The notes below the pieces were generated by a model. It saw only the letters and a program-made list of their open reading frames with translations. It ran no database searches and was not told where the DNA came from. This document shows, in pieces, positions 9,141 through 62,983 of a stretch of 64,000 bases of DNA (position 1 is its first letter; every line of letters starts with the position of its first letter). Both the position numbers and the translations under genes were made by a program. Origin of the DNA: Mugil cephalus (taxonomy: Eukaryota; Chordata; Actinopteri; Mugiliformes; Mugilidae); assembly GCF_022458985.1 (NCBI RefSeq), contig NC_061781.1, forward strand, positions 16,709,001-16,773,000, written 5' to 3'.

Positions 9141-9434
9141 AGGACTTCATTCACTCCCTACTCTAACCAGCTGTACAACAACAATTACAGGAACAATTTC
9201 TCAATCCCAACGAGGAAATAAATCCTCAAATGTTCAAAGTTATAAACGCACACATTTTGTTGGATTTGTGTCTGTGTAGCTTTTAACAATACATGTATTT
9301 GTTTTAAATAACTGAGAAATTCATAAGAAGTCGGTGTAGGGAAGTATTTTTTTTTTACTGATGACACACTGATGACACACTGAATCGACTGGTTGTTAAT
9401 TGACGGGGTAAGATAGCGGCCCCTCCTTTCACCA

Positions 9435-11265: not shown

Positions 11266-11425
11266 GACGTACTGGTTTCTTTGCCGTCCGTTTGGCCCTT
11301 GTCGGCCACCGTACTAAGTAGAGGTTGATTAAATAAAAACCTAGAACAGTACTTTGTCAGAGCTGTGTATAGTGTATAGTCACTGGAGCTGCCAGACATT
11401 CAGGACACAGTTGATGGTTTCCTGC

Positions 11426-28700: not shown

Positions 28701-31407
28701 TACAGTTGTCAAACATTGAGTTTATGGTCATACTTTACCTTGACAGCGAACGATAAAGTTGTATGTTGTACTCCACTTCACAGACGCTATTCTCCAACAG
28801 TGGACGGGTTGACAGCTGGACCGAACGCAGCGGGAGATGCGTGCTTTTTGATTGGCATCCAATGGAGATACGTTTTAAATAGATTGCGTCATAAAGCACC
28901 GTCCTATTGGTCATATAGATACCGACCGCGTCAGTTGCTAGGGTAGAATGCGGACATGCTGTATACTGTATAACGCGGAAGACTTCAAAAGTGGAGATAC
29001 GTGTTTTTCATTGGACAGCGACGTTATGCACCTCTCCACATCCACTCTCAGACGTGCAATCAACTGTGTCTGTTTGACATCCTCTCGACTCATTTGTTGT
29101 TTGTTGCTGAGAAAGGCAGGCCAGTACACCTTACAGGGAGCAAGGTTGTCCACAAGAAAGCCTTTGTCCACCATGATGGCCATACCCGGCTTCAGCAGCT
29201 TTACGATCCCACCATCACTCATATAGAACCTGCATACAGGCCAGACACAAAGGTGACAGCACCATGGAGCGCCATGCCAATCATGGCCTTGAATGTTGTG
29301 CACGACTTGTACGTTGAGAAAACCTCACGTTTGAGGACTTCCAACTGCTGTTGTAGCTCCCTAATCTGGCAACGTAGAGCTTCGTTCTCGTTGGCCAAAT
29401 CTGCCCTCACTCCTGTTTGAGGGACTACACAGTAGTCATGATCTGGAGCTATTTCGGTCTCCATCTCCGAGTCCGAGTCTGGTGTGGGATTCTTGGCTTG
29501 CGGACGCCGTTCCCAGACGCTTAAGTCTGGACACAGGTAGTTCATACCCGTTCCACAAAAAGTAAACGGGTACAGCTCCCTTCTTCAGCTTCCTCAGCGA
29601 CCCGGCAGTCATGAAAATCACTCTGCTTAAAATGCCAACTACAGACTCGGGTATTTTTGGTTGGGTTGAAGTCATCCCTCCTGATCTTCTGCATCCACTC
29701 CGCCCGTACCGCAGCATCAACGGGGAATGAATGAAAGCTGACCTGCTTACTGTGCCGTGACGAAACTGTGCATAATGGCACACAACAATGAAGTGCTGAG
29801 GCGCTCACCCTCTGAAAGACGAATCGTCTCTCTTGAATCTTAAAAACACTCATACTGAGAAAGTATCTCCCTGCTATGCTATGCAATGTCGCTGTTCCCG
29901 CTCTCGCTTTCAAATCGACGCCGGCTGAAGTTTTGACCGGAAGTACTGGCCCACGCACTCGAATTCGGTCGCCATATTGTGCAAGGAGCCAATAGCATTA
30001 TCTGGGTGTCTCAATCGGATAATGAGAACTCGGACTTTAATCGGAGTAACGTGTTTACATGCGCCTAAGTTCTCCTGTTATTGTCCCATTAAGGTTAATA
30101 ATTCGTTTTTTCACGTGCTTGTAAACGTACTGAAGAAGAAATTATTAATTTTTCTACCAAGTTCATTTTACTAATCAACATACTCGGACCTGGAATTGAA
30201 GTTAAAGCAGACATTTAAGAAAACACACGAACATGAAAATGTTAGAATTATTTTTTGATATTTGACGTGATAACCAGTTGAGATTTTCTAGGTTGTATTT
30301 AGAAGTGTGAATATTAACATAATTAACATTCATATAATCAAATAAAGAATGAGGTCCTAGATAATGGGAGGGTCGAGAGCATTAACCCTGTTTAAGTTTA
30401 CTTGCGTAGGGGTGATGCATGTTGAGAAAGTAGCAACATAGCGAGTCTGAGACAAAACAATGAGGAGCTGTTCTGAAGTGTGATAGAAGTTGCAAAAGAG
30501 GGAGTCACAGGATGAGCGTGGTACAGAGCATGTGAGGCCTTGTCAGGGAGGAACAGGTAGGAAGGACTTTCTCTTCTTTCTAGGGCGCTGTCCCAGGGGA
30601 ATGGAGGACCTGAGTGGCCAAGGACCGGGACCAACCCGTCCACAACCACGATGGGAGAGTTAAGTCTAAACCACGACTCCTCCCCACCTGTAGCCAAGCA
30701 ATCATATTCATTTTGTTGAAACCGTTATAATCAGACAAGGTCCATGCGCATGTATTTCTATATTCCAATTCATTTTTTAATAAATAGCTTATATTGATAA
30801 CAAGAAGTCGTATGGTGTTTTTTTCAGAAGAATTAACGATCACGCTGACAAATTCAAACCCGAGGAAAAAACTGTAAACAAGAGCTTGACACATTCACAT
30901 CCCCCACAGACCGCAGCCGCTGCGTGATGAAAAAAAAATGTGCGTATTATCATTAGATTAAGTCCGGAAACTAAAGTGCGTGGCGCAGTTACAGTTAAAA
31001 TCATTTTTTAGCGAGTTTAGGAAAACATATGGTAACGCAACTAACGCCTATCATCATTGTCGTAACAACAGTCACGCGTTAACCCAAAACCCAAATACAG
31101 ACAACGGAACATCTCACTGCGCCATAGTAGCGTTCGAGTCTCTTTTTGACCTTACCACCTGCATACTGAGGTTAATGCGTGACGTCTTTGTGGCTGAAAC
31201 TGAATTCCCATTGTTCTCTGCAGGAAATCATTTCTGTTGCACCTGAGTAAACACGAAGCAAGAACGACGAAAGATAAACAGTTTACCTTCGGTGTTTCTG
31301 CTCATCAGTGTAACTGACAGCACCAGCAGTAGTTTACAACCCACGGAGATTTCACGGTTCAGGAAAATGTTGCCCATAAAGGGCACACAAAAAAGACGAG
31401 GCTCCAT
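13716..31407 (-). CDS. Gene B: nectin/PVR-like IgSF receptor, 8 exons
   Basis: Tandem paralogue of gene A, 395 aa when spliced. Exons (minus strand): 31287-31407, 19696-20034, 19310-19606, 16763-16856, 14747-14904, 14175-14271, 14002-14071, 13716-13727. The Ig exons have the same lengths and phases as in A. The V domain keeps DEGTYTC and FPSGN, the C domain keeps SLATCTAAGSKP, and the third domain keeps SYECVTNANPEAHFVWS. The membrane exon is 2 bp longer and the next exon 13 bp longer than in A, so the tail is read in another frame (REQGTRGERN, ISTSPSNDSGEE, then EPV and stop). The gene is stretched to about 17.7 kb by insertions, chiefly the 7.4 kb composite in intron 1. A/B homology ends about 130 bp past the stop, so its 3' UTR probably runs into LINE and Gypsy debris. 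Confidence 0.85.
15141..16495 (-). mobile_element. hAT-type element in gene B intron
   Basis: Ends are CAGGACTGGGAC (15141) and, inverted, CAGGGCTGGACTGG (16482-16495), a terminus typical of a fish hAT group. On the minus strand a coding remnant near 15930-16290 includes DAAKCAKIGDMF, like the N-terminal part of TTF/ZMYM-type hAT proteins. The rest is decayed and no transposase core is visible. Absent from the equivalent intron of gene A. Confidence 0.5.
17095..17880. repeat. Local tandem duplication, about 555-bp spacing
   Basis: The block GACAATGTTGGAAGAATATC plus CCACCAGAAACAAAATACAG at 17163-17222 recurs as GATAATGTTGGAAGAATGTC plus CCACCAGAAACAAAATACGG at 17720-17785. A second shared block (GAATGTATGA, TCCATTCA) lies at 17094 and 17429. 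The duplication lies in the gene B intron between the C domain and the third domain. No coding role is seen. Confidence 0.6.
17880..19137. other. Intron sequence of gene B, mostly unassigned
   Basis: A 175-codon frame on the minus strand (18143-18670) and a shorter plus-strand frame were inspected; neither shows a domain I recognise. 18690-18830 on the plus strand reads LLWFVGGAVPAE and then NRNNKLI-like residues, reminiscent of the 3' end of a LINE reverse-transcriptase ORF, but it is too short to be sure. The segment is absent from the matching intron of gene A. Confidence 0.3.
20240..20640 (-). other. Exon-like open segment of unknown origin
   Basis: On the minus strand 20259-20400 encodes an uninterrupted charged, probably helical stretch (DMGKRERITDVNVKHKKQ, LATEAASMIQAE) followed by a GT that could act as a donor. 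A second open piece is at 20460-20604. They may be parts of a DNA-transposon accessory protein, but no family is recognised. It lies in intron 1 of gene B. Confidence 0.25.
20895..21287 (+). mobile_element. Solo LTR, Gypsy-type
   Basis: Begins TGTGACGGCC and ends CATAACA, with CTATAAAAC at about 21015 and AATAAA at 21213, so it has TG...CA termini, a TATA box and a poly(A) signal in the expected order over 393 bp. It is flanked by AAGGG on the left and AGGGG on the right, an imperfect 5-bp duplication. A (GTT)n/(GTG)n stretch lies inside the 5' half. No internal retroelement sequence adjoins it. Confidence 0.6.
21290..21525. mobile_element. Possible Harbinger-type MITE remnant
   Basis: The right end reads AATCCTGCTTCGTGATACAG then GCCCC, and the body contains GGGTTAACCCTGAAGTTACC and AGAGTTACCATGGTAACG, sequence typical of common fish MITEs of this group. 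No clean left end or target duplication could be found. Confidence 0.35.
22593..22687 (+). other. Isolated exon-like segment
   Basis: Preceded by a pyrimidine tract and CAG, followed by GAGGTGTGT, and open as VQDWGEEVEEGAIYN then VTLNRVQIQQAANKGAR. It looks like one internal exon, but no other exon of the same gene is nearby. It lies just left of the composite at 22770. It may be a captured host exon or a transposon exon; I do not recognise the protein. Confidence 0.3.
23320..23585 (+). pseudogene. SWIM/YqaJ-type transposon protein, N-terminal fragment
   Basis: Opens at an ATG (23320) with MASQTANAHLSPSEKQQ and continues through FADIYIYL; after a one-base frameshift near 23507 it reads YTGESLKAYKSTEAYRYF and TSGW. 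That last motif is characteristic of the segment before the SWIM zinc finger in fish YqaJ-type transposon proteins. The SWIM and nuclease domains are missing. Confidence 0.5.
24531..24722 (+). pseudogene. Second YqaJ-type N-terminal exon
   Basis: Starts at ATG 24531 with MAFFTRCLQDLPKLTISDVH and contains KGYKMYLSGFIDNYEG followed by a GTAAGT donor. The layout (LPKLT, then KGYK..L.GF) resembles the first exon of another YqaJ-like transposon protein, distinct from the one at 23320. No matching downstream nuclease exon was found. It may belong to the element nested inside the ISL2EU copy. Confidence 0.35.
25735..26010 (-). mobile_element. Ty3/Gypsy reverse-transcriptase fragment
   Basis: On the minus strand the frames read WEEHRLHLQQVLQPIKAAGL, TINPHKCAVA, LGYIIG, KVEAIHSFPVPTTKRKV and GEVGWY, the thumb/connection region of Ty3/Gypsy RT, with one frame break. 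Only about 90 residues remain and no LTRs adjoin. It probably inserted into, or was captured by, the surrounding element. Confidence 0.65.
26105..28200 (-). pseudogene. DDE/RNase H-like transposon protein, multi-exon
   Basis: Pieces on the minus strand in order: acidic exons near 28130-28185 and 27838-27900; 27369-27655 (RKRPNPETWKVNVQKRRRMR); 26895-27310 (RRFRVCQHMFLSTLGI, SHYCRSSSSKMYLEP); 26412-26790 (VCMDLQGLLLCPKLQ, LWHEGEAGLSANEFASC, WSDGCGYQNRN); 26123-26422 (HTQMECDSVHSVIE). This order matches a transposon-derived protein family widespread in fish and insects; the Asp residues in MDLQ and WSDG and acidic residues near HTQMECDS are plausible catalytic sites. The LLVCM/HTQME parts are interrupted by frame changes, so it is probably dead. 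Its superfamily name I cannot give. It appears nested in the ISL2EU copy. Confidence 0.5.
28938..29958 (-). pseudogene. THAP-DDE transposase, internally deleted
   Basis: N-terminal THAP zinc finger at about 29650-29870 (CCVPLC, then VCSWHF about 47 residues on: the C2CH pattern). Next comes a coiled coil (NENEALRCQIRELQQQLEVL, 29320-29400). This runs directly into the end of a DDE_4-type catalytic domain: FKAMIGMALHGAVTFVSGLY, then KPGMAIMVDKGFLV and REDVKQTQLIARLRVDVERC. The centre, which should hold the HTH and the first catalytic acidic residue, is missing between the coiled coil and FKAMIG, and at least two frame changes are needed. After VERC the sequence diverges at about 29020, probably a nested-element boundary. 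Confidence 0.7.
30140..31190. other. Gene B intron 1, proximal part
   Basis: 30140-30240 and 30840-31190 match gene A intron 1 (7340-7500 and 7530-7960), confirming that the duplication covers this intron. The intervening 30240-30840 is extra in B and has a 99-codon minus-strand frame without recognisable domains. CACGCGTTAACCCAAAACCC is shared exactly by both genes at 31073 and 7743. Confidence 0.5.
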
Positions 31408-45568: not shown

Positions 45569-47109
45569 TACACTACCGTTTTAGAACACCACACTGAAAA
45601 TGATTCAGTTTATTGTGTCATTGCACTCTGAAACAAAAGCATAGAACAAATAAGCAATTTGAGTTGAAAAAGAAATCATGGAATCAATTTATAGACCAAA
45701 ACGTTTTCTAGACTTTTGACTCATCACAGTAGCCACCTTTGGCAGATATAACAGATGAACACACTCGTGGCGTTCTTTCTATAATAGAAACCAAATATTC
45801 TTCAGAAAGTTCTTCCCAAGTCTGTTGCAGAAGTTCCCTCAAATGTGTGGCACTTGTAGGTTGCTTGGCTTTCACTCTTCCGTCCAGTTCATCCCAAACC
45901 GGCGTGATGGGGTTTAAGTCTGGAGACTGTGCTGGCCACAGCTAACCATCTTGTACTTTTTTCCTGAGGTAGTTTTGGCGTAGCTTGGACTTGTGTCTTG
46001 GGTCATTATCTTGCTGTAGGATGAACCTCTGACCGACTAGGCACATACCAGAGGGTATTGCATGGCGCTGCAGAATGCTGTGGTAGCCATTTTGGTTCAG
46101 GGTGCCGCTCACTCTGTACAACCCACCAACCCTGGATCCAGCAAAACAGCCCCAGACCATCACACTTCCTCCTCCATGTTTGACCGTTGATGCCACACAC
46201 TGTGGAACCATCCTCTTGTCTACTCTGCGGAGTACAAAGATCCTGCGTGATGAACCGAAGATTTGAAATTTTGATTCATCAGTCCATAATAGCTTCTTCC
46301 AGTCTTCACTAGTCCAGTGGTGGTGTTTCGTGGCCTCTTTGTCTTATTCTGACATCTTAGCAATGGCTTTCTTGCTGCAACTCGTCCTGTCAAACCTGCA
46401 GCTCGAAGTCTTCTCTTCACAGTTGAAACTGAGACTTGCTTACTACGACTACTATTAAGCTGTGCTTGAAGGTGTTGTCCTGTGAAACGCCTGTCACACA
46501 AGCTGTTAACTCTCAGAAACTTGTCCTCTGATTCAGTTGTGGCTTTGGGTCTGCCAGATCGCTTCCTGTCAGAGTTTCCCCCGGTTTCTGAGTGCCTTTT
46601 GATGGTGAAGAAAACTGTACTCACTGACGCCTTGACTTTCTTTGCAATTTCCCTGTAGGAGAGACCTACATTTTTAAGTGTTATGATGGTCTGTCTCTCT
46701 TCCCTTATTAATTGTCTTTTTCTCGCCATTTTTGTAGCAACACACTACTTTCTGCAGTACAATACTGTTCACCTGATGCTCATGAGGGTCTGGTACCACA
46801 GTGTGTTCCAACACTGCTTCTATGCAGACTGAGGGGATTGTCAGTAATCCAGAAAAGTTAGAACACCTGTAGCAATTAGTAGCACCAGCTTTCAAAGCTG
46901 ATTCAACCTTCATTGCTGCAGAACAGCTTTAAATTGTCTAACCCACTTCATGTTCTCTGAAAAAGGCCTTTCTGTATATTTCTGAAATGTACATTGTTTT
47001 TCAGTTTACCTTTGTACCATTTCAAGCTATTCACTGGGCTTGCATAACTTGAATTGCAATAAATAACTGGGAAAATTAGGGTGTTCTAAACCTTTTGACC
47101 TGTAGTGTA
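45569..47109 (-). mobile_element. Tc1-like transposon
   Basis: The TA dinucleotides at 45569-45570 and 47108-47109 flank an element with inverted ends CACTACCGTTTTAGAACACC and, at the right, CACTACAGGTCAAAAGGTTT then AGAACACC. Length about 1.54 kb is normal for Tc1. The transposase is on the minus strand. Insertion into TA and near-complete structure indicate a fairly young copy. Confidence 0.9.
45708..46729 (-). pseudogene. Tc1 transposase, frameshifted
   Basis: Starts at 46729 (MARKRQLIREERQTIITLK). A paired-type HTH region includes SYREIAKKVKASVSTVF, an AT-hook-like KRSGRPK, and a second HTH (QVSVSTVKRRLRAAGL). A frame change near 46350 is needed to reach LLWTDESKFQIFG (first Asp), and another near 46215 to reach VMVWGCF, QQDNDPRHKSK (second Asp) and SPDLNPITPVWDEL. 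The third catalytic position, Glu in most Tc1 proteins (PIEHLW), reads Thr here. It therefore cannot be active. Confidence 0.85.
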
Positions 47110-49130: not shown

Positions 49131-49507
49131 TGTGACGGCCCAACAAGACACTTCCTATTGTTACCATTGAAGGAGCCTGGGTGGGGAACTGATTTCACCT
49201 GAGAGATGGGAGGAGCCAAAAGGCATAAAGGGACGGCCTCCCAGTCGTTCTCTCTCTCTCTCTCTCTCTCTGGGCAGCCGCCATGATGGCTTCTATATTG
49301 GTTTAGGTTTGGTTTGTTTCTACATTTGTTTCAACACTCATCCACATCCTCTCCTGCACCCACACTTCACACTACTGATCCCCTTCATATTTACACACTT
49401 CATCTTTTTAGTTTATTCTGTGGTTAATTTAAAGAAATCACGTTTGGTTGACCTCATCACTGTGTGTGATCTCCTTGTTTGTTACCACCCTGAGCCAGGC
49501 TGTAACA
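49131..49507 (+). mobile_element. Solo LTR upstream of gene C
   Basis: Starts TGTGACGGCC and ends TGTAACA, with a perfect 5-bp duplication GTGTG at 49126-49130 and 49508-49512. A TATA-like GGCATAAAGG lies at about 49220, followed by a (TC)n run. It is nearly identical to the LTR at 58850-59223. It ends 115 bp before the gene C signal-peptide ATG, so it could contribute a promoter or a 5' exon. Confidence 0.75.
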
Positions 49508-49621
49508 GTGTGACTTACGCATTAGTATTTTTGTTGCTGTTGTTGTTTTGTTGTTCAAGTGCAACTAACCACTTCCTTTCTGTTGCACCTACATACACAC
49601 TACATTTAAAAACACGTGGTA

Positions 49622-52600
49622 ATGTTCCAGTCCCTCCTTCTCTGTCTGATGGTCACCATGTCTCGTGTAAACCAAGCCGCTGTGCTCTTCACTCTGCTGC
49701 TGGTTTTGTGTCGTGTCCTTACAGGTACAGTAATGATGTTGTTTTCTCTGGGTTTATTTGATCATTAAAATTTACGCTTATTATTTGTATTGCTTTCTTC
49801 AATATTAGCAATGTTAGCAACTAACCACTTCCTTTTCTCACCGCCTCCACATTTACATTTAGAGCCAACAGTTCCAGAGTGTCAATCTCTGTCTGATGGT
49901 CATGATGTTCAGCCAAAACCAAGCAGCTCTGCTCCTCATTGTGCTGCTAGCGCGCCGTGTCTTTGCAGGTAAAGAGGAGGTTTGTGTTTGTGATGCTTTT
50001 ATGCAGATTTAAGTGCACCTTTTATTTCATCATGATGGATTGTTTCCTTTCAACTTTAGGGTCTGAAACTGATGAGCACAGGGATATGCTGGTATCCAGA
50101 GGAGACTCAGTCACGTTCCACTGCAACGTATCCAGAGAAAATGCTTCAGAAATGACCTGGAACTTTAAAAGATTCATTTACAAACATTCTATCCTGATAA
50201 ATCAGACTTTTTCAAATGTATCTTCTGACAGACTGAGAATAGATCCTTTAAAGTTAAATATTTTCAGTGCTCAACCTGAAGATGCAGGACTTTATTCATG
50301 TAGTGCAACTGACAGACGAGGCTTAAACTGTGTTTCCTGGAATTTAACTGTGTCTGAGAACATTGAAGGTAGGTAGAGCAGAGCAAAACACAGCAAATAA
50401 TTTCTGCAACATGCTTCATACAGTTCAAACAGTTTAAACTGAAAAAATACTTAAATATCATTCTGATCTGATTTTACGTAGAAACAAGTTCATCATATTT
50501 ACCATACGTACTCACAGCTGCAGTCGGATTGCTTCTATGTGTCATCGCATCAGCTGTCTGCCTCTGGAGGTGAGTGATGCCTTTCAGCTTCAGATTCAGC
50601 ATGAACAAATACGTTTATGTGCACTTAATAGCGCGTGATATGCAAAATTACAAATGATAATTTCTAAATTCGCAGTTTGTGTTGTACTTTTTGAAAACCT
50701 AGGACGTTTATGCACGTTGCTGTTAGTCCCTTCCTAGATGACACACATAGTGCAGCAGTCTCGAAGCACTCGCCTTTTTGTTGTCAGTGTCATGTCACTG
50801 GTCTCCCGAGTTGTGATGACATCTGAATCCAGCAGCCCACTTCTTCACCTCGCTGTAATAGAAATTAAACACTTCTGTAGTGATGGTTGAGAGTAGATGG
50901 CTGCACAACAGTGGAGAGACTGCTGACTTACAATTTTCTGCATGATAACTTAGAGTGCTGAACTGCACATGGACACAACAAGTGTTTTATTACTCATGTC
51001 ATTATACTCTAAATCTGGACTTTTCAATCTTCGTGTGTCAAAGTTTTCTAATGTTTGTGCAAAACGTAGTTTAGCAGCTAGCAGTTAATTCGTTGAAATA
51101 AAAAATTTAACCACTTTAACTCCTAAAACTTCAATTCAGTGGATGATTTGTAGCCTTAAACAGAGTGTTTAATATGTGTCGACTTTAAGAGATAGTATAG
51201 TATAGTATAGTATAGTATAGTATAGTATAGTATAGTATAGTACAGTATTGGACTCTCTTTTCTTGAGCCATGAATTGTATTTTGGGTTATGAGCTGTTTT
51301 TTTGTTTTTACTTTTAGTTTTTGGGCTTTCATTTTTTTTTTTTAGTTACCAGTACTTTGTGTTGTCCCATTTTGTGCTTCGCATCATTAGTTTCACATGT
51401 GCCTCGTTAAACCACCAAGAGTGTGTAATAGTGTACACTATTTATATCCCTGTTTGTTCTTTATTTTTAGTCATTGTCAAATTTACTTTGTGTTGTTCAT
51501 CTTGCGTTTGAATCCTACCTTCCTTGCTACACCTCTGGCATTTAGTGTAACTGAACCAAACACTGTCGCTGCAACTTGCAATTACAAGATGTTAAATGTA
51601 AAAGTGAACCGTTGCCGACGCATTAAGTCAGTGAATGGACTCAGAACAGTGTCTGAAATGCCAAAGCATTATCAGACTTAAGCACTGCTGTCTTCATCTT
51701 ATCTGACGTTGTCGACCATAAGCTACTGGTCATAGCAGACCAAATAAGACTGTTGACTTTATTATTGATATGAGCAGAAGTATATTTTATCATCGGGGCC
51801 GTGTTTAAGTGGGTAGAGCGGGTTGTTGACAGACCAGGTTAGTCGTTTGAGTTGCTGTGTCACTGTGAGTGTAAAGCACTTTGAGTACGGTTCTATATCA
51901 ATCCAAATACAACACCACTGACTTTAACTTCAGTTAGAGGCTAAAGAACAACAAAGATATGGACCCTGTGGTGATTTTCTCTTTCATAAAATAATAACAC
52001 CCTGTTTCTTGCCCAGTGCCAGTTGGACTCTAGCCCCAGGTGAACCTTTAAAAGGATAACCCGTGATAGATAATGGACGGACAGATCTGCATTAGATTTG
52101 AGCCTTTCAACAATCAGGATGTCTCAAAAGTTGAGAAACAGTTACCTCTACTGGCATATCACTACAATATAAAACAGACAAAACATCAGAGAAGATGGTG
52201 TGCAGGAAGCAGAAGGGAAATAAAATGTTCTCTGTGTGTCTGGCCACTGCGAGATATGAAAAAGGAAATGGATTTCTGACCTATCACACTTGCGATTTGC
52301 ATCACAACGTAGTCATTTCTGGGAAGGTGCAGATCAGACTACACTGCAGAGTAGAGACGCAGAACCACAAATATGATTTAAATCCACTTCTGTTACCAGC
52401 ATAAAATCAACTTCTTTATGAATGTCCATGTTTTGGTCATTGGATTTTCCCATCAGAAAGGGATATTAAAAAACAAACAAAAAAACAGTGGTTATTTGAT
52501 TTTGATTCTTTAATTCAAAAATTAAAATTGAAATTTGATACATTTTTCTTTATCATGTTCGAGGATGAATGAACAAAACTTTAAAACCGGTCTTTTTTTT

Positions 52601-53626
52601 CTAATTTCTGTTTATAAAAACAAAAAATAAAATCGTTATAAGACAGAATCAAAAAAGCAACCGTATTTTGCAACCGGAAATTTCCGATTTCAAAGTAAGA
52701 GCCGATATCTCTGCACGCATATGTTAACTAGTAGCTAACTATTCCCTGATTATATGTAGTTAATTTTAGTTTGAAATATGCGGTTTTTCTGAAGCCATGT
52801 TGTCTTCCCAGAGACACACTCTTTTATTGTTTCGAAAAACAACGAACTGATCCGTGTCCATCAACTTCTGTTACACACCGCCCGTCTCATACATGCTCTT
52901 ACTTTGGAAACGACAACTTCCGGTCGCACAATATGAAAAAACCGGGCGCTTTTCTGTTTCTTTTCTGTCTTCTAACGATTTTATTTTTTGTTTTTAGAAA
53001 CATAGAGAATTAAAAGAGATTTCAATCTTAGTTTTTGAATTTTAAAATGAAAATTAATTGTTTTTTTTAACATCCTTTTCTGAACGGAAAATCCAATGAC
53101 TAAAACATACACGGACTGTGAACTCATGCACAGAGAAACTATCTGTGAATGTAACAGTGAGACGTCCTTCAAACTGACATTTGATAGCAGACTTAAGCCA
53201 GATGTATGGCTCCATGACAGATGTTTAACAGGAGTCACCAAATGGATTGAAATTCGCTTTGATAAAACATGTACTTTTATTTTTTTTTTGTGTCGTCTGT
53301 GTGTGCAAGTCATGATATGATTCGATGCATGATATAACCAGCAATGGTTTTTACTTATACAATGACTAATACAACCAACGTAATCTTTCGTTGTCAGCAG
53401 TTGTGTATAGCCACTATATGCTCTGCAGTGAAGTGTGTCTTCTATTCATACTAACTAGGACAATGTCGTTATTGGTCGCTGCTTTGTCTTTGTAGAAGAA
53501 GCAGGTCGAGGGCAGAGCAAACATTTCCGGTCGGGGATCAGACTCGATCTGGATCAAGAGAAGAGGTCAGAAGAGCTTTGTCAACTTTAATTGTTTTTTT
53601 CTCCTGCATTAGAGGCTGTACAGAAC

Positions 53627-53659
<33 letters not shown>

Positions 53660-53787
53660 TTTCATAGGGACACAATCAAGAGGAAGACAACACGGATCAG
53701 TGGAGAAACAACAAGAGAAGGAGTCAGTACATGGAGAAGCTGAATCCAATCTATGGTGACAACTGGGTGGACAAGTCATTAAGATGA
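49622..53787 (+). CDS. Gene C: single-V-domain IgSF receptor, NPIY tail
   Basis: 229 aa when spliced with the first signal exon. Exons: 49622-49724 (signal, 1a), 50060-50368 (V domain), 50482-50569 (membrane span), 53496-53565 and 53668-53787 (tail). Phases 1-1-2-0 fit. The V domain has SVTFHCNVS, Trp in EMTWNFKR and EDAGLYSC, plus N-glycosylation sites (NVS, NQT, NLT). The membrane exon reads YVLTAAVGLLLCVIASAVCL. The tail is very charged (RRSRSRAEQTF, RRSQYMEKLNPIYGDNW) and holds an NPIY motif but no ITIM. Alternative signal exon 1b is at 49896-49968. Poly(A) signals AATAAA occur at about 53880 and 53936. I recognise no named family; it resembles fish-specific immune-type IgV receptors. Start chosen at the most upstream in-frame ATG of exon 1a, preserved in all three genes. 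Confidence 0.75.
49896..49968 (+). CDS. Alternative signal-peptide exon 1b of gene C
   Basis: Encodes MVMMFSQNQAALLLIVLLAR and ends GCAGGTAAAG in phase 1, just like exon 1a, so either exon can splice to the V exon. Its upstream sequence (GTTCCAGAGTGTCAATCTCT) is homologous to exon 1a, showing a local duplication about 250 bp apart in which the first ATG was lost. The same pair exists in genes D and E. Confidence 0.6.
51191..51242. repeat. (TATAG)n microsatellite, gene C intron
   Basis: About ten uninterrupted TATAG units. The same array stands at 57031-57092 in the matching intron of gene D. Confidence 0.95.
51800..51920 (+). mobile_element. Possible SINE with L2-like tail
   Basis: GTGGGTAGAGCGGGTTGTTG then GTGTAAAGCACTTTGAGTA and TTCTATATCAATCCAAATAC resembles a tRNA-derived head followed by a common fish LINE-type tail. 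Short and degenerate. Confidence 0.35.
52428..53108. mobile_element. Foldback element with long imperfect inverted arms
   Basis: The left arm starts ATGTTTTGGTCATTGGATTT and the right arm ends with its inverse (AAATCCAATGACTAAAACAT after an imperfect start). The two halves remain alignable for about 300 bp each (AAAAACAAAAAATAAAATCG occurs in both orientations). No coding content. It is inserted in the gene C intron upstream of the tail exons. Confidence 0.65.
53627..53661. repeat. (TTA)n microsatellite
   Basis: About eleven TTA units immediately upstream of the acceptor of the gene C last exon, within its polypyrimidine region; length variation could affect splicing. Confidence 0.9.
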
Positions 53788-54030
53788 AGATGGAAACAGA
53801 GACATGGACGATGTATGAAGCACATTACATTTTCTAGTTTGAAAACTGGCACTTTGAGGGAAGTGGACTCTAATTAATACAATAAAACTACAGTCTTCAT
53901 GTTAACGGTTACAGTTGTAATGTTGTTATAGTGTGAATAAAGTTAAGTTAAAGCTAACCCATGAGTCCGTCATATTTCAAGCCAGTCACACACAACTATA
54001 TAATATTAGATGTTAAGAATTGCTTCAAGT

Positions 54031-55298
54031 CAACAGACGTTAAAAATATTTCCAGTGCTCAACCTGAAGGTGCAGGACTTTATTCATGTAGTGTCACTTA
54101 CAGATGAGGCTTAAACAGTGTTTTCTGGAATTTAACTGTGTCTGAGGACTAAAGGTAGGTAGAGTAAAAAACATGGCTCATCATTTCTGCAACATGCATC
54201 ACATTGATTTTATGCAGAAATCAGTTCATCATGCACAGCAAATTGAGAAGAGTTGAATTCTTGGTGTTAAACTAGAAATACACTAGTAGAGTTAATTATA
54301 CTCTGGGTAGACTTAATCCATTATAATTAACTCTCAGTCGATAAATAGTTGTTGTCAAAAACCGAGTGTAAAAAGGAAGTGTCACTAAATTAAACATCTA
54401 GGTGTAAATGTTAAAATATTAACGCTGAACTTCTTACTCTAAACTCTGATCCTGTATTTAACACCTCAAGTGTTAAGACCCCCCTCCCCCCATTACTATT
54501 CGGGCACCCGAAGTCATTTTGTAGCGGTGAGCCACTGAAACTTTACTCGTCGCGCTGTTACTAACCACCTGAACACCTGCTTAATGAGCTTGAGGTTAGC
54601 ATTGTTAGCATGCATGCCTGGCCTCACTGTAACATAGAAAGTGAGTAAGGGCAGTAAACGCTTCGTTTGGCTTGACGTTTTGTCTGAGTGAGACGAGTCA
54701 TGCACTTTGTAACCATAGATATAAAACGTGATAAGATGATGCTAATGGTTCGGAGTTGCTAGCTAGCGTGCTAAAGTGGTGCTAACGCTACATACATACA
54801 CTGTTGCATGTTGTAATATTTGTGGTGCAAGTTTGAAAATAAATGTTTTTGAACTGCCAAACATGACTACCTTTTTATTTTAGTAAAGTTTGTTTTCCAA
54901 GTATTTTTTGTAGGATTATATAAGAATTATATTGACACCTTTAAGTGTTATGGGGGTAACACTTTTGTAGTTAAGAAATAGTCCTCTAACAGAGTTAATT
55001 GCTAACTCTATATAAAAGTGTTAAAAAACTAACACTGGTTGGTGTTAGGCAGTGTGTTAAATTTAACTAGAAGAGTTAAATTTACACTAACTTAGTGTAA
55101 AGGTACCAACACTCGAAAAAGTGTTAAATTAACCGTTGCAGGTGTGGACCCATATAGACACTTTAAAAGTGTTAAGATCAACTCTTACAGTGTTAATTTG
55201 GGTATGCTGATTTTACTGTGTGGGATTTACTATGTGTACTCGCACCTCTAACTTTATTGTTTCTATGCGGCATCACATCTGCTGTCTGCCTCGGGGGT
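54031..55298 (+). pseudogene. Broken IgV receptor copy between C and D
   Basis: 54031-54158 is the 3' half of a V exon (AGTGCTCAACCTGAAGGTGC, TTTATTCATGTAGTGTCAC) with an in-frame TGA in place of the conserved Arg codon and a damaged end. 54216-54233 plus 55221-55298 are the two parts of its membrane exon, separated by the 987-bp element below. Signal and tail exons are missing; downstream it fuses to the 5' region of gene D near 55425. Confidence 0.8.
54234..55220. mobile_element. 987-bp MITE with CACAG...CTGTG ends
   Basis: Splits a membrane exon whose intact form is known from gene E, so the limits are exact: TG at 54232-54233 is repeated at 55221-55222, a 2-bp duplication. Ends are CACAGCAAATTGAG and, inverted, CACAGTAAAATCAGC. 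The inside is full of GTGTTAA and its complement TTAACAC. No coding capacity. The terminus resembles CACTA-type elements but is not a full match. Confidence 0.7.
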
Positions 55299-55492
55299 GA
55301 GTGAGAAGTTTTACTTATATATTTTATTTGAAAGAGGGTTCAAACAAATTCACATTTTTATTGTTCTTTGTTCATGACAACTGGACTGAAAAAAAGTTGT
55401 ATTTTGTTTCTGTTCTGTTTTTTTGTTTTGTGCAACTTACCACTTCCTTTCTGTTGCACCTACATACACACTACATTTCAAAACACGTGGTA

Positions 55493-57504
55493 ATGTTCCA
55501 GTCCCTCCTTCTCTGTCTGATGGTCACCATGTCTCGTGTAAACCAAGCCGCTGTGCTCTTCACTTTGCTGCTTGTTTTGTGTCGTGTCCTTACAGGTACA
55601 GTAATGATGTTGTTTTCTCTGGGTTTATTTGATCATTAAAATTTATGCTGATTATTTGTATTGCTTTCTTCAATATTAGCAGTGTTAGCAACTAACCACT
55701 TCCTTTTCTCACCGCCTCCACATTTACGTTTAGAGCCGAAGGTAAAGTTCCAGAGTGTCATTCTCTGTCTGATGGTCATGACGTTCAGCCAAAACCAAGC
55801 AGCTCTGCTCCTCATTGTGCTGCTAGTGCGCCGTGTCTTTGCAGGTAAAGAGGAGGTTTGTGTTTGTGATGCTTTTATACGGATTTAAGTGCACGTTTTA
55901 TTTCATCATGATGGATTGTTTCCTTTCAACTTTAGATATCCCAGTAACTGACCACAGGAATATGCTGGTATCCAGAGGAGACCCAGTCACGTTCCACTGC
56001 AACGTATCCACAGAAAATGCTTCAGAAATGATTTACATCATTTACAAACATTCTATCCTGATAAATCAGACTTTTTTAAATGTATCTTATGACAGACTGA
56101 GAATAGATCCTTTAAAGTTAAACATTTTCAGTGCTCAACCTGAAGATGCAGGACTTTATTCATGTAGTGTAACTTCCAGACGAGGCTTAAACAGTGTTTC
56201 CTGGACTTTAACTGTGTCTGAGAACATTGAAGGTAGGTAGAGGAGAGCAAAACACAGCAAATAATTACTGCAACATGCTTCATACAGTTCAAACAGTTTA
56301 AACTGAAAAATACTTAAATATAATTCTGATCTCATTTTATGTAGAAATCAGCTCATCATATTTACCATACATACTCACAGCTGCAGTCGGATTGCTTCTA
56401 TGTGTCATCGCAACAGCTGTCTGCCTCTGGAGGTGAGTGATGCCTTTCAGCTTCAGATTCAGCATGAACAAATACGTTTATGTGCACTTAATAGCGCGTG
56501 TTATGCAAAATTACAAATGATCATTTCTAAATTCACAGTTTGTGTTGTACTTTTTGAAAACCTAGGATGTTTATGCACGTTGCTGTTAGTCCCTTCCTAG
56601 ATGACATTCATAGTGCAGCAGTCTGGAAGCACTCGCCTTTTTGTTGTCAGTGTCATGTCACTGGTCTCCCGAGTTGTGATGACATCTGAATCCAGCAGCC
56701 CACTTCTTCACCTCGCTGTAATAGAAATTAAACACTTCTGTAGTGATGGTTGAGAGTAGATGGCTGCACAACGGTGGAGAGACTGGTGACTTACAATTTT
56801 CTGCATGATAACTTAGAGTGTTTTATTACTCATGTCATTATACTCTAAATCTGGACTTTTCAATTTTCGTGTGTCAAAGCTTTCTAATGTTTGTGCAAAA
56901 CGTAGTTTAGCAGCTAGCAGTTAATTCGTTAAAAAAATAAAAAATGTAACCACTTTAACTCCTAAAACTTCAATTCAGTGGATGATTTGCAGCCTTAAAC
57001 AGAGTGTTTAATATGTGTCGAGTTTAAGAGATAGTATAGTATAGTATAGTATAGTATAGTATAGTATAGTATAGTATAGTATAGTATAGTATTGGACTGT
57101 CATTTCTTGTGCCATGAATTGTATTTTGGGTTATGGGTTGTTTTTTTGTTTTTACTTTTAGTGTTGTGGCTTTCATTTACTTTTTTACTTACCGGTACTT
57201 TGAGTTGTCCCATTTTGTGCTTCGCATCATTAGTTTCACATGTGCCTCGTTAGTTAGTTATTTAGTGAAGCTGGTAGCGTGAGAATCCCCAGTTTAAAGA
57301 AGTAGACGAGAGCATCGACGCCATAGAAGAGCTTGTCAGTTTTGTCTGTGTAATCTAATGGTTTTTAAGATAAAATGTGTTTTACAGCCAGTATTGTAAA
57401 AATCTTGGATCGTGTGCAGCAGAATTTTTACTTTTAACATGTAACTGATGATATTTATTCAGTTTTACTTTTGTATTTGCAGAAGACGTCGGGCCAGGAC
57501 CTGA
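55493..57504 (+). CDS. Gene D: IgV receptor with truncated tail
   Basis: Exons 55493-55595 (signal 1a), 55936-56232 (V), 56345-56432 (membrane), 57483-57504 (tail up to stop); about 169 aa. The V exon is 12 bp shorter than in C and E and lacks the TWNFKR segment, including the conserved Trp of the Ig core. The tail exon is homologous to that of E, but CCA has become TGA (57502-57504), giving a stop six residues after the membrane exon (RRRART); a 5-bp deletion follows. The rest of the E-type tail coding sequence persists, unused, at 57505-57565 and 57662-57730. An alternative signal exon is at 55772-55844 (MVMTFSQNQAALLLIVLLVR). Either a tail-less receptor or a pseudogene. Confidence 0.55.
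57031..57092. repeat. (TATAG)n microsatellite, gene D intron
   Basis: About twelve TATAG units in the intron after the membrane exon, at the position matching 51191-51242 in gene C. Confidence 0.95.
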
Positions 57505-57730
57505 AACTCCGTATGAGAGCAGGATCCTGAGCCAGGCTCAGTATCAAGTTCTATTGGGAGGAGAGGTTAGAGGAACTTTAATAATACACAAATTAGAGTG
57601 TCACAATGTATTTTTTAGTCAATATCACCTATTTCTTACCCATTTACTTTCATTCACATAGGTCGCCCCTCCTCAACCCTACAGACGTGCAGTGTATAGA
57701 ACAATCATGAACTCTGAGAGACTCCTGTAA
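57505..57730 (+). pseudogene. Unused tail exons of gene D
   Basis: Downstream of the premature stop, 57516-57565 and 57662-57730 still encode SQAQYQVLLGGE and PPQPYRRAVYRTI, homologous to the gene E tail, but in a frame not reached from the membrane exon. Confidence 0.7.
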
Positions 57731-58849
57731 ACCTGTCGAGTCCACTGAGCTGACAAGCACAAAGTACAAGAGAAAGAAAGTATTTCATTACATGTGAAAA
57801 CGATGCATCTCAGTATTGTTCTTGTAATAAGGAAAATTACCAAAGTGTATCTTATGTTTTTAAATGTTTAATCTATTTTTTTCTTGCATGCAGATCGTCA
57901 CCATTGTATTCCTATATCCTCTCCTTGTGTTTTTTGGCCTTCCCTGGTGTCTTTTAGATTTGTTTGTTAGGTTTACCCTGCAGTACCTTAATTTTCATTA
58001 ATACATTTTGTTTCCTCCTCCTGTCTCCTTCCTGTGTTCTGCATTTGGGTCCAACTTGTTTTTTGTTTTTTCTGGACCTCCACCACATTCTTCTCTGATA
58101 ACTTTTTCATACTTCTGCTCTTGGACCTGAGCTTCATACACAGTGTTCACATAGACACACATACGGGTAATGGGGAAGAGGTGGATACGATCTGAAATCA
58201 GAGAAGACAGAGCAGTGACACACAAGGAAAAAGGAAGTGACCTGAAACGAGAGAAGAGTTACATTTCAAAATAAAACAGGAAGTCATGAGACAAGAATGG
58301 GGACAAGACAAAACCTCAGCAAGTTGTGACATGTACCTGGATTGTGACGATATAAAAGCGTTTCTTCAAAGAAAATCAGAAGAGAGGAGAGCAGACTGAG
58401 AGGCAGAAGAGACAAGAACACATTAAGAAACCAGAAACTACAGTCTTCATGTTAAAGGTTTCAGATGTAATGTTGTTATAATGTAAAATAAAGTTAACTC
58501 AAAGCTAACTCATGGGTCTCTCATATTTCAAGGCAGTCACACAAAACTATATAATATTAGATGGTTAGAAATGCTTCAAGTCAGCAGACTCAGGCCTCAT
58601 CAAAGTGTTTGAAACTCTCCAACCAACAAGATGTGGTTATTGTACATACACGATACATGCATTCAAGTAAAGGATGCTCAGTGTTCACAGTGTGAGGCCA
58701 ACGTGTCTTCAGCGTAAGAGGAGGTTTTCCTGCATTTTATATTTGAGCTCATAATATGATTATAGTGATGAGAAATATATCTCAGTTAATTTTCAGTCAA
58801 GTTGAAACATTAAATCAACAATTCATGTTAGATTTTACATGAATGTGAG
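57731..58849. other. 3' region of gene D and spacer to gene E
   Basis: 58436-58580 matches the 3' flank of gene C (53877-54030), including AATAAAGTTAA, so a C-type poly(A) region also follows gene D. 57998-58225 has a minus-strand frame without known motifs. No other gene is seen. Confidence 0.4.
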
Positions 58850-59223
58850 TGTGACGACCCACCAAGACACTTCCTATTGTTACCATTGAAGGAGCCTGGG
58901 TGGGGAACTGATTTCACCTGAGAGATGGGAGGAGCCAAAAGGCATAAAGGGACGGCCTCCCAGTCCGTTCTCTCTCTCTCTCTCTCTGGGCAGCCGCCAT
59001 GATGGCTTCTATATTGGTTTAGGTTTGGTTTGTTTCTACATTTGTTTCAACACTCATCCACACCCTCTCCTGCACCCACACTTTACACTACTGATCCCCT
59101 TCATATTTACACACTTCATCTTTTTAGTTCATTTTGTGGTTAATTTAAAGAAATCAAATTTGGTTGACTTCATCACTGTGTGTGATCTCCCTGTTTGTTA
59201 CCACCCTGAGCCAGGCTGTAACA
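58850..59223 (+). mobile_element. Solo LTR upstream of gene E
   Basis: Same LTR as 49131-49507, in the same place relative to the signal exon. Flanks are GTGAG on the left and GTGTG on the right, one mismatch from the intact duplication seen at gene C. The matching position and shared flanking sequence show that insertion preceded the C/E duplication. Confidence 0.7.
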
Positions 59224-59336
59224 GTGTGACTCCTCATTAGTATTTTTGTTGCTGTTGTTGTTTTGTTGTTCAACTGCAACTTACCACTTCCTTTCTGTTG
59301 CACCTACATACACACTACATTTAAAAACAGGTGGTA

Positions 59337-61812
59337 ATGTTCCAGTCCCTCCTTCTCTGTCTGATGGTCACCACGTCTTGTGTAAACCAAGTCGCTGTGC
59401 TCTTCACTCTGCTGCTGGTTTTGTGTCGTGTCCTTACAGGTACAGTAATGATGTTGTTTTCTCTGGGTTTATTTGATCATTAAAATTTACGCTGATTATT
59501 TGTATTGCTTTCTCCAATATTAGCAATGTTAGCAACTAACCACTTCCTTTTCTCACCGCCTCCACATTTATGTTTAGAGTCGACGGCAAAGTTCCAGAGT
59601 GTCATTCTCTGTCTGATGGTCATGATGTTCAGCCAAAACCAAGCAGCTCTGCTCCTCATTGTGCTGCTAGCGCACCGTGTCTTTGCAGGTAAAGAGGAGG
59701 TTTGTGTTTGTGATGCTTTCATATGGATTTAAGTGCACCTTTTATTTCATCATGATGGATTGTTTCCTTTCAACTTTAGGGTCTGAAACTGATGACCACA
59801 GGGATATGCTGGTATCCAGAGGAGACTCAGTCACGTTCCACTGCAACGTATCCACAGAAAATGCTTCGGAAATGACCTGGAACTTTAAAAGATTCATTTA
59901 TAAACATTCTATCCTGATAAATCAGACTTTTTCAAATGTATCCTCTGACAGACTGAGAATAGATCCTTTAAAGTTAAATATTTTCAGTGCTCAACCTGAA
60001 GATGCAGGACTTTATTCATGTAGTGTAACTTCCAGACGAGGCTTAAACAGTGTTTCCTGGACTTTAACTGTGTCTGATGACATTGAAGGTAGGTAGAGTA
60101 AAAAACATGGCTCATCATTTCTGCAACATGCATCACACAGTTCAAACTTAAAACTACATAAATATAAATCTGATTTTATTTTATCAGAAACCAGTTCATC
60201 GTGGTATTTACTATACGTACTCACACCTGCAACTTTATTGCTTCTATGTGGCATCGTATCAGCCGTCTGCCTCTGGAGGTGAGTGAGAATTTTTACTTCC
60301 TTTCTACTGTTATTACAAAAATGACATCTTTACATATTTTATTTGGAAGCTGGTTCAAACAAATTCACAAGTTTTTCTTTTATCAATCTTTGCTGATACT
60401 GACTTCATATATGACAACTGGACTGAGAGAGTTGTATTTCATTCCTGTTTTTTATTTGTTCTAATTTGAAATAGAGTTTTCACATTGTTCTAATCTTTGG
60501 TCATAAAAACATCATTTTCAGTGCATTGTAGGAATGTTAAGTCATGTCTCTGTATTACAGCAGACATTTTGACTGGTTAACAACGGCCTCAGTGAACGAC
60601 ATTAGTGAGGACTCACACACAAAACTAAAACTGTCTCACTAATAAACAAAATGTAGGTTTAATTATTAACATTAATTATACTGTATCAGTGGTGAAATGG
60701 GTCCATTGTTGCTAAGGTGACGAAACAAAAGTAGTAATTTTGAGAAGTTTCTTGATCAACATAGAAACTTTACCAGTTCTAGATATAATTACATCTTATT
60801 CTGATGTGGAGAAAAATCATATTATTCTCTCATTATCTTTCTTTTCTGAAGCATTATTATTAATTTCTCATCCAGTTATAACATGATAAGTTGGAATATG
60901 ACACTCAAATTCAATATTAATGATAAATTGTGGTGTTAAAAATAAAAAATATATACAGATGCACTGAGTGTTAAAAAACATTTTAAAATGTTGAGCTTGA
61001 TGGATTTTAGTAGCTCCGTCAGGGACTTAAAGGTTCGGTTTATCTTTTTTCTAAGTCAGGTTGAGTGAACTGCTTATTTAGTGAAGCTGGTAGCGTGAGA
61101 ATCCCCAGTTTGAAGAAGTAGACGAGAGCATCGACGCTGTAGAAGAGTTTGTCTCGACCGTGTAAACAGCAAAACATGTTTAGGCCACTTTAAACAAGGC
61201 TCCCTGAACACTATCAGTTCCTCTTTGCTATATTTAGAATATTATGCAGATTGTCCTCAATGTTGATCTAAATCTGTCTCTTCTAAGCAGCAGTTTCACA
61301 TTGCAGTGGAGTTGCTGGTTTGCTACTGTGTGGCTTGTTGTAACACATTAATTGGAGACCAGCAAACGTATTATCACACCAGATTCACACACAAACTAAT
61401 CAAAGCTGACCACATCTGTTTAGTTCTGTCTGTGTAATCTAGTGGTTTTTATGATAAAATGTGTTTTGCAGCCAGTATTGTTAAAATCTTGGATTGTGTG
61501 CAGCAGAATTTGTACTTTTAACATTTAATCTCTATTATTTAGTTTTACTTTTGTGTTTGCAGAAGATGTGGGGACAGGACCCCAAACTCCACCCTGTATG
61601 AGAGCAGGATCCTGAGCCAGGCTCAGTATCAAGTTCTATTGGGAGGAGAGGTTAGAGGAACTTTAATAATACACAAATTAAAGTGTCACAATGTATTTTT
61701 TAGTCAATATCACCTATTTCTTATCCATTTACTTTCATTCACATAGGTGGCCCCTCCTCAACCCTACAGACGTGCAGTGTATAGACCAATCATGAGCTCT
61801 GAGAGACTGTAA
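59337..61812 (+). CDS. Gene E: single-V-domain IgSF receptor, tyrosine tail
   Basis: 218 aa. Exons 59337-59439 (signal 1a), 59780-60088 (V), 60188-60278 (membrane), 61563-61650 and 61747-61812 (tail). Phases 1-1-2-0 fit. The V domain keeps SVTFHCNVS, EMTWNFKR and EDAGLYSC. The membrane exon reads YLLYVLTPATLLLLCGIVSA then VCLWR. The tail is RRCGDRTPNSTLYESRIL, SQAQYQVLLGGE, APPQPYRRAVYRPIMSSERL, with YQVL and YRPI (Tyr-x-x-hydrophobic) motifs that could act as sorting or ITIM-like signals, though the -2 residues are Ala rather than the ITIM consensus. Signal exon 1b is at 59616-59688. An alternative last exon is described separately. Family name not recognised; likely an immune receptor. Confidence 0.78.
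59616..59688 (+). CDS. Alternative signal-peptide exon 1b of gene E
   Basis: Encodes MVMMFSQNQAALLLIVLLAH and ends GCAGGTAAAG in phase 1, matching exon 1b of genes C and D. Conservation of the frame and donor in three copies suggests use, but the upstream ATG of exon 1a is absent here. Confidence 0.55.
60561..60646 (+). CDS. Possible alternative last exon of gene E
   Basis: After TGTATTACAG the sequence is open in the phase required by the membrane exon (phase 2): SRHFDWLTTASVNDISEDSH, TKLKLSH, stop. The stop TAA (60640-60642) overlaps an AATAAA poly(A) signal (60641-60646). It would give a 27-residue tail with no tyrosine. No counterpart was seen in C or D. Confidence 0.4.
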
Positions 61813-62983
61813 ACCTGTCGAGTCCACTGAGCTGACAAGCACAAAGTACAAGACAAAGAAAGTATTTCATTACATGTGAAAATGATGCATCTGTGTATAG
61901 TTCTTGTAATGAGGAAAAGTACCAAAGTGTAGCTTATATTTTTAAATGTTTAATCTATTTTTTCTTGCATGCAGATCATCTGTCTTTGAATTTTATGCTC
62001 TACATGTTTTGTTTATTTCATTGTCCAGTAGATGTCGCTAAAGACTCAAATGTGTCAGTGTTTTGTGTTTTGAGTATTCCCTGTGACTCTGTTTGGTTTT
62101 CTTTGTTTCCTGTCCTTCTTCTGTGTTTCTTATTTTGTGTAATTTCGTGTATTTTTCCACTCTTTGCTAAATGTTTAGTTTCTCCGAGCGCTACATGTAA
62201 TATTATAGTTTTATATTATATAATAGTTTCATATTTAACGTTTCACATTTATATTTATCATTTATATTTATATTTAACATTTAGATTTAACAATTACCAT
62301 TTATATTTAATGTTTAGATTTACATTTAACATTTAGATTTAGATTTAGTTTTTAGATTAAGATTTAACATTAACTAAATGTGTTCAGATCTGCCTTTTTT
62401 CTGCTAGGCAAAAATAAAAAATAAAAAAATGTCCAACTGAATTCCTCAACATAGAAATAAATGAACATTTTATTTATTTTTTCAACTCTTGTTTTCATTA
62501 GAATTTTTTTATGTATTTTTATTGGTTTAGAGGCACAAATATGTCATATCCATTGTAATGGACACAGGGTCTGAAGGGGTTAACACGCGCAGCTTTACAA
62601 ACGGCTTTACCCCATAAGATTGTTTCCGGACCAACCCAGTATCGGTCACCAGCCGCCTCTCGTTTTCACGTCGCCGCTCCAAAACTTCCGGTTTTCAAAA
62701 TAAAACGTGGGGATTAAATGTATTAAACGTTTATTTAAAAAAATATGAAAAATGTTAAGATCTGATTTTTTTTTTAAAAAAAATAAAGAAAGTAAGAGTT
62801 ATGTCTCATAAAACTGTGTGAAAAAAATGACAAATGATTATGATGAAAAAGAATGATCCTGCAGTGATTTTGAGACAATAGTTCACATCACCTGGAAGTA
62901 ATGCTCATATTTACATGATGAAATGTATTAAAAATTCATAAAAAATATGAGATGTTTTAAAATGCTATATAAAAAGAATAGGT
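61813..62983. other. 3' region of gene E and AT-rich spacer
   Basis: 3' UTR and flank. 62210-62370 is a degenerate array of ATTTA(T/G)ATTTAAC-like units. A 147-codon frame (61893-62336) runs through this low-complexity DNA and is not protein-like. GC-richer sequence near 62590-62700 has no recognised feature. Confidence 0.4.
62210..62370. repeat. Degenerate AT-rich minisatellite
   Basis: Repeated CATTTATATTTA and TAACATTTAGATTTA words with variable spacing. Confidence 0.7.

Follow-up and report, generated by a model that had tools for sequence, protein, structure and literature searches.

V exons mixed over two transmembrane and tail lineages in an immunoglobulin-type receptor cluster of Mugil cephalus

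Do neighbouring genes that carry nearly the same ectodomain on different tails form paired immune receptors? The question is raised by three genes, C, D and E, in a stretch of 64,000 nucleotides of the Mugil cephalus genome (NCBI RefSeq assembly GCF_022458985.1, contig NC_061781.1, here C12, positions 16709001-16773000; hereafter the window, whose numbering is used unless C12 is named). A sequence-only reading of the DNA between the first base of the transmembrane (TM) exon of C (50482) and the last base of the stop codon of E (61812) had proposed that C and E share their signal and V exons, have unrelated tails and are rapidly evolving paired receptors, with D joining parts of both. We find it fairly probable that the genes belong to a birth-and-death cluster of small immunoglobulin (Ig)-type membrane receptors, in which V exons circulate over two old lineages of TM and tail exons, and in which long tails would signal and short tails would activate or serve as decoys.

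Shared heads and divergent tails in C, D and E

The three genes lie on the + strand and share one plan: a pair of leader exons, a single V/I-set exon, a single TM exon and a pair of tail exons, bounded by GT/AG throughout and separated by introns of phase 1 (leader-V), 1 (V-TM), 2 (TM-tail) and 0 (tail-tail). Signal, Ig domain, TM and tail are all present as in type I membrane proteins of the Ig superfamily, and four Pfam Ig models scored above cut-off in both C and E. Every copy begins with a tandem pair of mutually related leader exons of equal phase (49622-49968, 55493-55844 and 59337-59688), which are alternative leaders. Sequence searches of the PDB matched generic Ig only, and AlphaFold2 gave the three V exons a mean predicted local distance difference (pLDDT) of 45.6, a predicted template-modelling score (pTM) of 0.32 and an implausible helix. 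No match was obtained from NCBIfam, whose library is prokaryotic, and Rfam and tRNA scans found nothing.

The heads of C and E are nearly identical, as first read: 297 of the 309 V-exon bases (96.1%) and 92% of the amino acids agree, and identity is 95.6-98.5% across the leaders, their introns and the V exon. Their tails are indeed unrelated, since 24-base tail probes run over the whole window with up to three mismatches found E-type tail only in D and E and C-type tail only in C, with none in shuffled sequence. The other type of tail was also sought by a sensitive search in four places: the C tail intron, the sequence behind E, that behind D, and psi, a dead copy between C and D. Only two pieces turned up, 20 and 25 bases long and no better than chance (E 0.97 and 0.46). 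The two genes part earlier than the tails, however: identity drops from 800/829 to 173/206 where the V exon ends, the V-TM intron and the TM exon are 82.8% and 86.4% identical, and homology ends 8 bases past the TM exon. Over 49560-50577, with gapped columns excluded, C=D is favoured by 13 of the 57 sites that lie no further than 50357 and by 28 of the 38 beyond it. The best C/E breakpoint lies between 50342 and 50358, with an equally strong one in 1 of 10000 permutations and a Fisher p of 1.5e-9 at this point chosen post hoc; these p-values are indicative because neighbouring sites are not independent.

D is C-like through 57252 and E-like from 57258. It matches C over 55402-57252 (49529-51409 in C, 92.7%) and E over 57258-57337 (61074-61153, 95%) and 57338-57899 (61422-61980, 91.9%), so that both the end of the C/D intron match near 51408 and the switch near 57255 had been placed correctly. 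By the homologous splice sites the tail of D does not read through, and its V domain lacks four residues, Trp among them.

V exons and TM/tail exons across the wider cluster

A search of the genome (634.8 Mb, 24 contigs) with the V exon of E gave at least 21 DNA matches, all at C12:16.759-16.901 Mb. The window accounts for four, and the other 17 are minus-strand matches at 16.8436-16.9009 Mb. At the protein level there were 24 matches, none of them outside this cluster at E 0.001. We mapped exons and modelled genes over C12:16773001-16923000, naming each gene by the kb, in window-based coordinates, of the first leader found (its C12 position being that plus 16,709,000). An inverted array at C12 16.840-16.901 Mb holds eight further models with head, TM and tail: three C-type genes (M191, M162 and M148), two with a long E tail (M185 and M138) and three with a short E tail (M165, M153 and M135). 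For five V exons the AG chosen lies 9 bases inside the homologous acceptor, and either choice keeps the frame. Because their V exons are each in phase, three in M153 and two in M138, three- and two-Ig proteins are likely.

Across these genes the V exons do not sort by tail. In a tree of 19 V exons, with tail type scored on ten genes (D not counted; M138 and M153 represented by the TM-adjacent V), tail type takes four changes, against a mean of 3.3-3.4 for shuffled labels; one-change trees made up 0% of 200 bootstraps, and a single clade of C-tail V exons was rejected by the approximately unbiased (AU) test (p 0.0048). The branches are mostly weak (3 of 16 starred), as expected of mixed, young sequences. 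A tree of the V-TM intron and TM exon of 11 genes splits the C and E types with one change and support 100/100, with D in the C type. TM type equals tail type in 10 of the 11 models, the sole exception being D, which has a C-type TM and an E-type tail. Since the V tree is unsorted and the TM split clean, the two TM/tail lineages are stable and the V exons mix across them; that heads have been exchanged or homogenised over lineages that would be old is well supported by these sequence comparisons. The sharing of heads with exchange of tails, first proposed from C and E, can be followed over the 11 models, but D is no clean swap, its short E tail stopping after RRRRART.

The array also contains damaged members. 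M148 has stops in the V exon and in the tail, the M191 tail ends seven residues early, and M185a, M180, M167, X1-X3 and tail remnants, such as one at 131.3 kb, are partial or dead. Together with the neighbouring C-type genes, X1-X3 make up a repeated unit of the inverted array; they were considered as a third receptor type and rejected, neither an intact V nor a TM exon being found in them. The Ig domain of E has only Cys 44 and Cys 103. C has an additional Cys at 113 (GLNC, near the V end, 50329-50331), and in M165 it stands one residue earlier (GLCS); these two proteins could form disulfide dimers.

Tail classes, selection and the make-up of D

Three tail classes are observed. The four C-type tails are alike, with tyrosines in YME and IYGDN, and the C tail as a query against the genome picked out at least these four, with no others among its matches. 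NPIY, which had been taken to mark this tail, is present in C but is private to it, the other three tails having NSIY, and we rejected it as a conserved signal. The long E tail carries YQxL/I and then YRPI or YRTI; YQVL and YRPI had been read correctly in E. The first E-type tail exon comes in two lengths: in E, M185, M138 and the remnant at 131.3 kb it has 88 bases, and in D, M165, M153 and M135 it is five bases shorter, at 83. In its short form the tail ends after RRRRART, RRCRART or RRCRARTPNSV, 7 to 11 residues past the membrane (7 in D; residues after the TM window: C 64, E 52, D 8). This third class is common to D and three array genes, and we rejected the D tail as a private decay for that reason. 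Four of the 12 other AG sites in D would keep the tyrosines in frame, but each has a poorer pyrimidine tract (0.39-0.56 versus 0.78). Its tail block is nearest to that of M135 (94.7%). The tail-block tree, with two changes and not one starred branch, leaves short and long forms unseparated; 210 of 500 shuffles needed as few changes, so that one or several origins of the short tail are both compatible with it.

In C, D and E we found no charged TM residue and no consensus immunoreceptor tyrosine-based inhibitory, switch or activation motif (ITIM, ITSM or ITAM). An Arg lies within the TM in two of the 11 models, both short-tailed: M135 (GIRSAV) and M153 (LLRGT). The partial copy M167 also has LLRGT, and no tail was found for it. 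The data do no more than suggest that a TM Arg goes with a short tail. Adaptor-coupled activating receptors are usually marked by a short tail together with a basic TM residue (PMC3031540). The proposed pairing is partly supported: neighbouring ectodomains are alike, signalling exons diverge and two short-tailed array genes have a TM Arg, but C, D and E themselves lack the charge and the consensus motifs.

Between C and E the V exon shows 3 synonymous and 9 nonsynonymous changes, with a ratio of nonsynonymous to synonymous rates (dN/dS) of 0.82; the ratio is 0.84 for D/E and 1.89 for D/C. Nine genes have 12 open V domains, every one with two Cys and the Trp, and over their 66 non-independent pairs mean dN is 0.055 and mean dS 0.053 (ratio 1.03), dN exceeding dS in 37. 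In the tails, C and M162 differ by 2 synonymous and 4 nonsynonymous changes, E and M138 by 0 and 5, and E and M185 by 0 and 3. A V ratio near 1, set against the suggested rapid evolution, fits relaxed or mixed selection, and is proof neither of positive selection nor of strong constraint.

The C-like segment of D begins at psi. Over its V end and V-TM intron, psi has an identity of 92.2% with E and 86.5% with either C or D; its TM exon with about 20 intron bases is 85.5% identical to E, 73.8% to C and 72.9% to D, and its tail intron shows a weaker E likeness of 71%. Because psi is E-like and the C-like segment starts there, the head of D sits inside former E-type sequence, a direction of transfer that we infer, and the E-type tail behind D may derive from psi. 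The match in reading phase between the psi TM exon and the D tail was rejected as proof of this origin; it may be chance, because in M135, M153 and M165 this tail exon is preceded by a TM exon of the ordinary 91 bases. Sequence past the C stop (53885-54038) recurs after D at 58435-58589 (88%), where a C-type 3' end may formerly have been present. The insertion in the psi TM exon, at about 54232-55220, has short similar ends, CACAGCAAA and TTTTACTGTGTG, with no terminal repeat of 14 bases reported, and is probably a transposon.

A block resembling a solo long terminal repeat (LTR) stands upstream of C and of E (368 of 380 aligned bases over 49133-49515) and is not present before D. The C/E homology begins at its left end and the C-like segment of D just past its right end, and a further copy, 91% alike, lies beside a tail remnant at C12:16.8407 Mb; the block may have aided duplication or may carry a promoter. 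Other repeats in the window are a long imperfect inverted repeat in the C tail intron (52428-53108), resembling a miniature inverted-repeat transposable element, a Tc-type transposase relic at 46223-46744 (-), and THAP and DDE_Tnp_4 domains at 28941-29997 (-).

Table 1 Features of the cluster (window numbering unless C12 is given)
Feature	Position	Strand	Basis
C leader exon L1	49622..49724	+	exon model
C leader exon L2 (second leader, related to L1)	49902..49968	+	exon model
C V/I-set Ig exon	50060..50368	+	Pfam Ig_3 1.1e-08, V-set 4.2e-07
C TM exon, C type	50482..50569	+	exon model, TM tree
C tail exon 1	53496..53565	+	exon model
C tail exon 2, contains NPIY	53668..53787	+	exon model, tail-piece search
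D leader exon L1	55493..55595	+	exon model
D leader exon L2	55778..55844	+	exon model
D Ig exon, 12 bases lost around conserved Trp	55936..56232	+	exon model, alignment
D TM exon, C type	56345..56432	+	exon model, TM tree
D tail exon 1, short E type, 83 bases, stop after RRRRART; length as in three second-array genes	57483..57565	+	
D tail exon 2, E type, out of frame via homologous splice sites	57662..57730	+	
E leader exon L1	59337..59439	+	exon model
E leader exon L2	59622..59688	+	exon model
E V/I-set Ig exon	59780..60088	+	Pfam ig 6.2e-09, V-set 7.9e-08
E TM exon, E type	60188..60278	+	exon model, TM tree
E tail exon 1, long type, 88 bases, YQVL	61563..61650	+	exon model
E tail exon 2, YRPI and stop	61747..61812	+	exon model
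C-like segment (D leaders, V, TM, 0.8 kb intron) flanked by E-type stretches	55402..57252	+	alignments
psi, dead E-type copy: V-exon 3' part with in-frame stop, short intron, TM exon split by ~1-kb insertion, tail-intron start	54044..55427	+	
Solo-LTR-like block upstream of C, TG...CA ends, GTGTG both sides in C	49131..49507	+	96.0% to E block 58850-59223
Broken copies X1-X3 (L1 and 88% V exon), one after each of three C-type genes	C12:16853143-16853635, 16866790-16867279, 16896083-16896549	-	

Competing explanations and known receptor families

In our preferred explanation the TM exon, introns and tail descend in two old lineages, C and E, between which V exons would have been repeatedly swapped or homogenised by gene conversion or unequal crossing-over, with the result that the proteins would keep a common ligand and end differently, in a C tail, a long E tail or a short E tail. 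Long tails would signal through SH2 proteins, the E tail probably being inhibitory; short-tailed members with a TM Arg would be activating partners and those without it decoys. D is a C-type head on a short E tail. Carried further, the cluster would be a modular head/tail system of one to three V exons over three tail classes, whose short-tailed members gained a TM Arg twice at different positions, so that a 5-base deletion truncating an inhibitory tail would have given rise to activating forms more than once; we regard this extension as unlikely.

Several points weigh against the preferred explanation. The gene models were built from splice consensus and likeness among copies, not from transcripts. 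An early stop before the last junction brings a message under the rule of nonsense-mediated decay; the short-tail stops lie 61, 61, 61 and 49 bases upstream of that junction, and some short-tail mRNAs might be destroyed in this way. The sequence past these stops is nearly intact, which could reflect recent loss or alternative splicing. The E-type tyrosine motifs have Ala at -2 and make no consensus ITIM, and the link of TM Arg to short tails is weak (two of four short-tailed versus none of seven long-tailed, p 0.11), M165 and D having the short tail without the Arg. The V dN/dS near 1 is also compatible with decay of spare copies, and the data do not separate gene conversion from unequal crossing-over.

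Whether the members are true paired receptors under selection, with long tails that inhibit, short TM-Arg members that activate via an ITAM adaptor and V domains kept alike for a common ligand, we can answer only with a tentative 'possibly'. The mixing of V exons across tail types and the way mammalian families operate favour it, and paired function is judged more likely because M135 and M153 in the second array combine a short tail with a TM Arg; the p-value for that combination, the Ala at -2 and the uncharged TM of C, D and E speak against it. Somewhat more doubtful is a neutral array in which V exons are homogenised through proximity alone and the short tails, the lost Trp and the stops are decay of spare genes. 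It would account for the many dead copies (psi, X1-X3, the M148 head, the partial M180 and M167) and for the mean V ratio, but not readily for 12 V domains that stay open and keep the Cys pair and Trp, nor for a TM/tail region that was not homogenised between types despite lying in the same array.

All six pairings of the three heads with a C or E tail stay open in the window, as a single complex transcription unit splicing heads to several tails would allow, but each copy carries leaders of its own and C has AATAAA or ATTAAA (53881 and 53936) downstream of its own stop, making such a unit improbable. Arrays are prone to misassembly, yet D is very unlikely to be an assembly artefact, as its V exon differs by 6.1% from C and 5.4% from E with a 12-base loss private to it, and its tail block is identical to no other. 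Least credible is that C and E are recent duplicates with one tail exchange and unmixed heads: the end of homology just past the TM exon agrees with this, but the fall in identity already at the V-exon end and the conflict of V and TM trees over ten genes disfavour it.

NITRs have as a hallmark a J-like FGxG motif after the V domain; it is absent from the V exons of C, D and E, which close with WTLTVS or WNLTVS and four further residues. Likeness to TIGIT, CD226 or the nectin/PVR group was seen neither among the matches listed (60 of 1102) nor in any of 33 by profile, a weak method at this distance. Keyword literature searches found no title or abstract start describing this receptor family, which is weak evidence of absence. 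Head sharing over differing tails is already known in mammals, where Siglec-11/-16, CD300A/C and the CEACAMs follow the same logic. Siglec-11 and Siglec-16 are neighbours in which gene conversion has made the ectodomains alike while the signalling parts differ, with relaxed constraint and broken alleles (PMC5701461), which resembles this cluster with its broken copies; their ligand, expression and adaptor are known, whereas the cluster is known from its sequence and mixes three tail classes. CEACAM1 and its ITAM-bearing relatives likewise carry related V domains, kept alike by conversion and recombination, on unrelated tails (PMC2832619), but have ITIM and ITAM-like motifs where the cluster has YxxL/I and other tyrosines only; the likeness is one of plan. 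CD300A and CD300C, reported as a single-Ig pair with ectodomain conversion and one decaying member (PMC12447643), are also alike in plan; the E Ig domain has just two cysteines.

Among fish families, the salmon NILT cluster resembles ours in holding V-type receptors in tandem and in either orientation, with one Ig domain or two, together with pseudogenes and transposons; it differs in its CX3C cysteines (the criterion being CX3C, CX6C or CX7C in the V) and four to five ITIMs, neither of which C and E have, and in a TM-tail intron of phase 1 instead of 2 (PMC3022915). Carp SITR is likewise a fish Ig receptor family including forms without a signalling tail, but unlike the cluster it lacks a TM, and its V domain is CD300-like (PMC3031540).

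Elsewhere in the window, nectin/PVR-like V-set and C2-set exons occur in two copies 96% alike at 3901-4768 (-) and 19302-20053 (-), with Nectin-1 and then the poliovirus receptor as best PDB matches; a region of ~612-base repeats, 98% alike, lies at 9185-11268 (-). True PVR is reported only from placental mammals, with unusual nectin relatives in bony fish (PMC7286890). These genes are a possible candidate for a linked ligand family.

In the preferred explanation, a single genome shows heads moving freely over fixed TM/tail lineages. A short frameshift in a tail exon, followed by a membrane Arg, would be a simple route from a tyrosine-tailed to an activating-looking receptor, and the origin of paired receptors may thereby become testable in fish.

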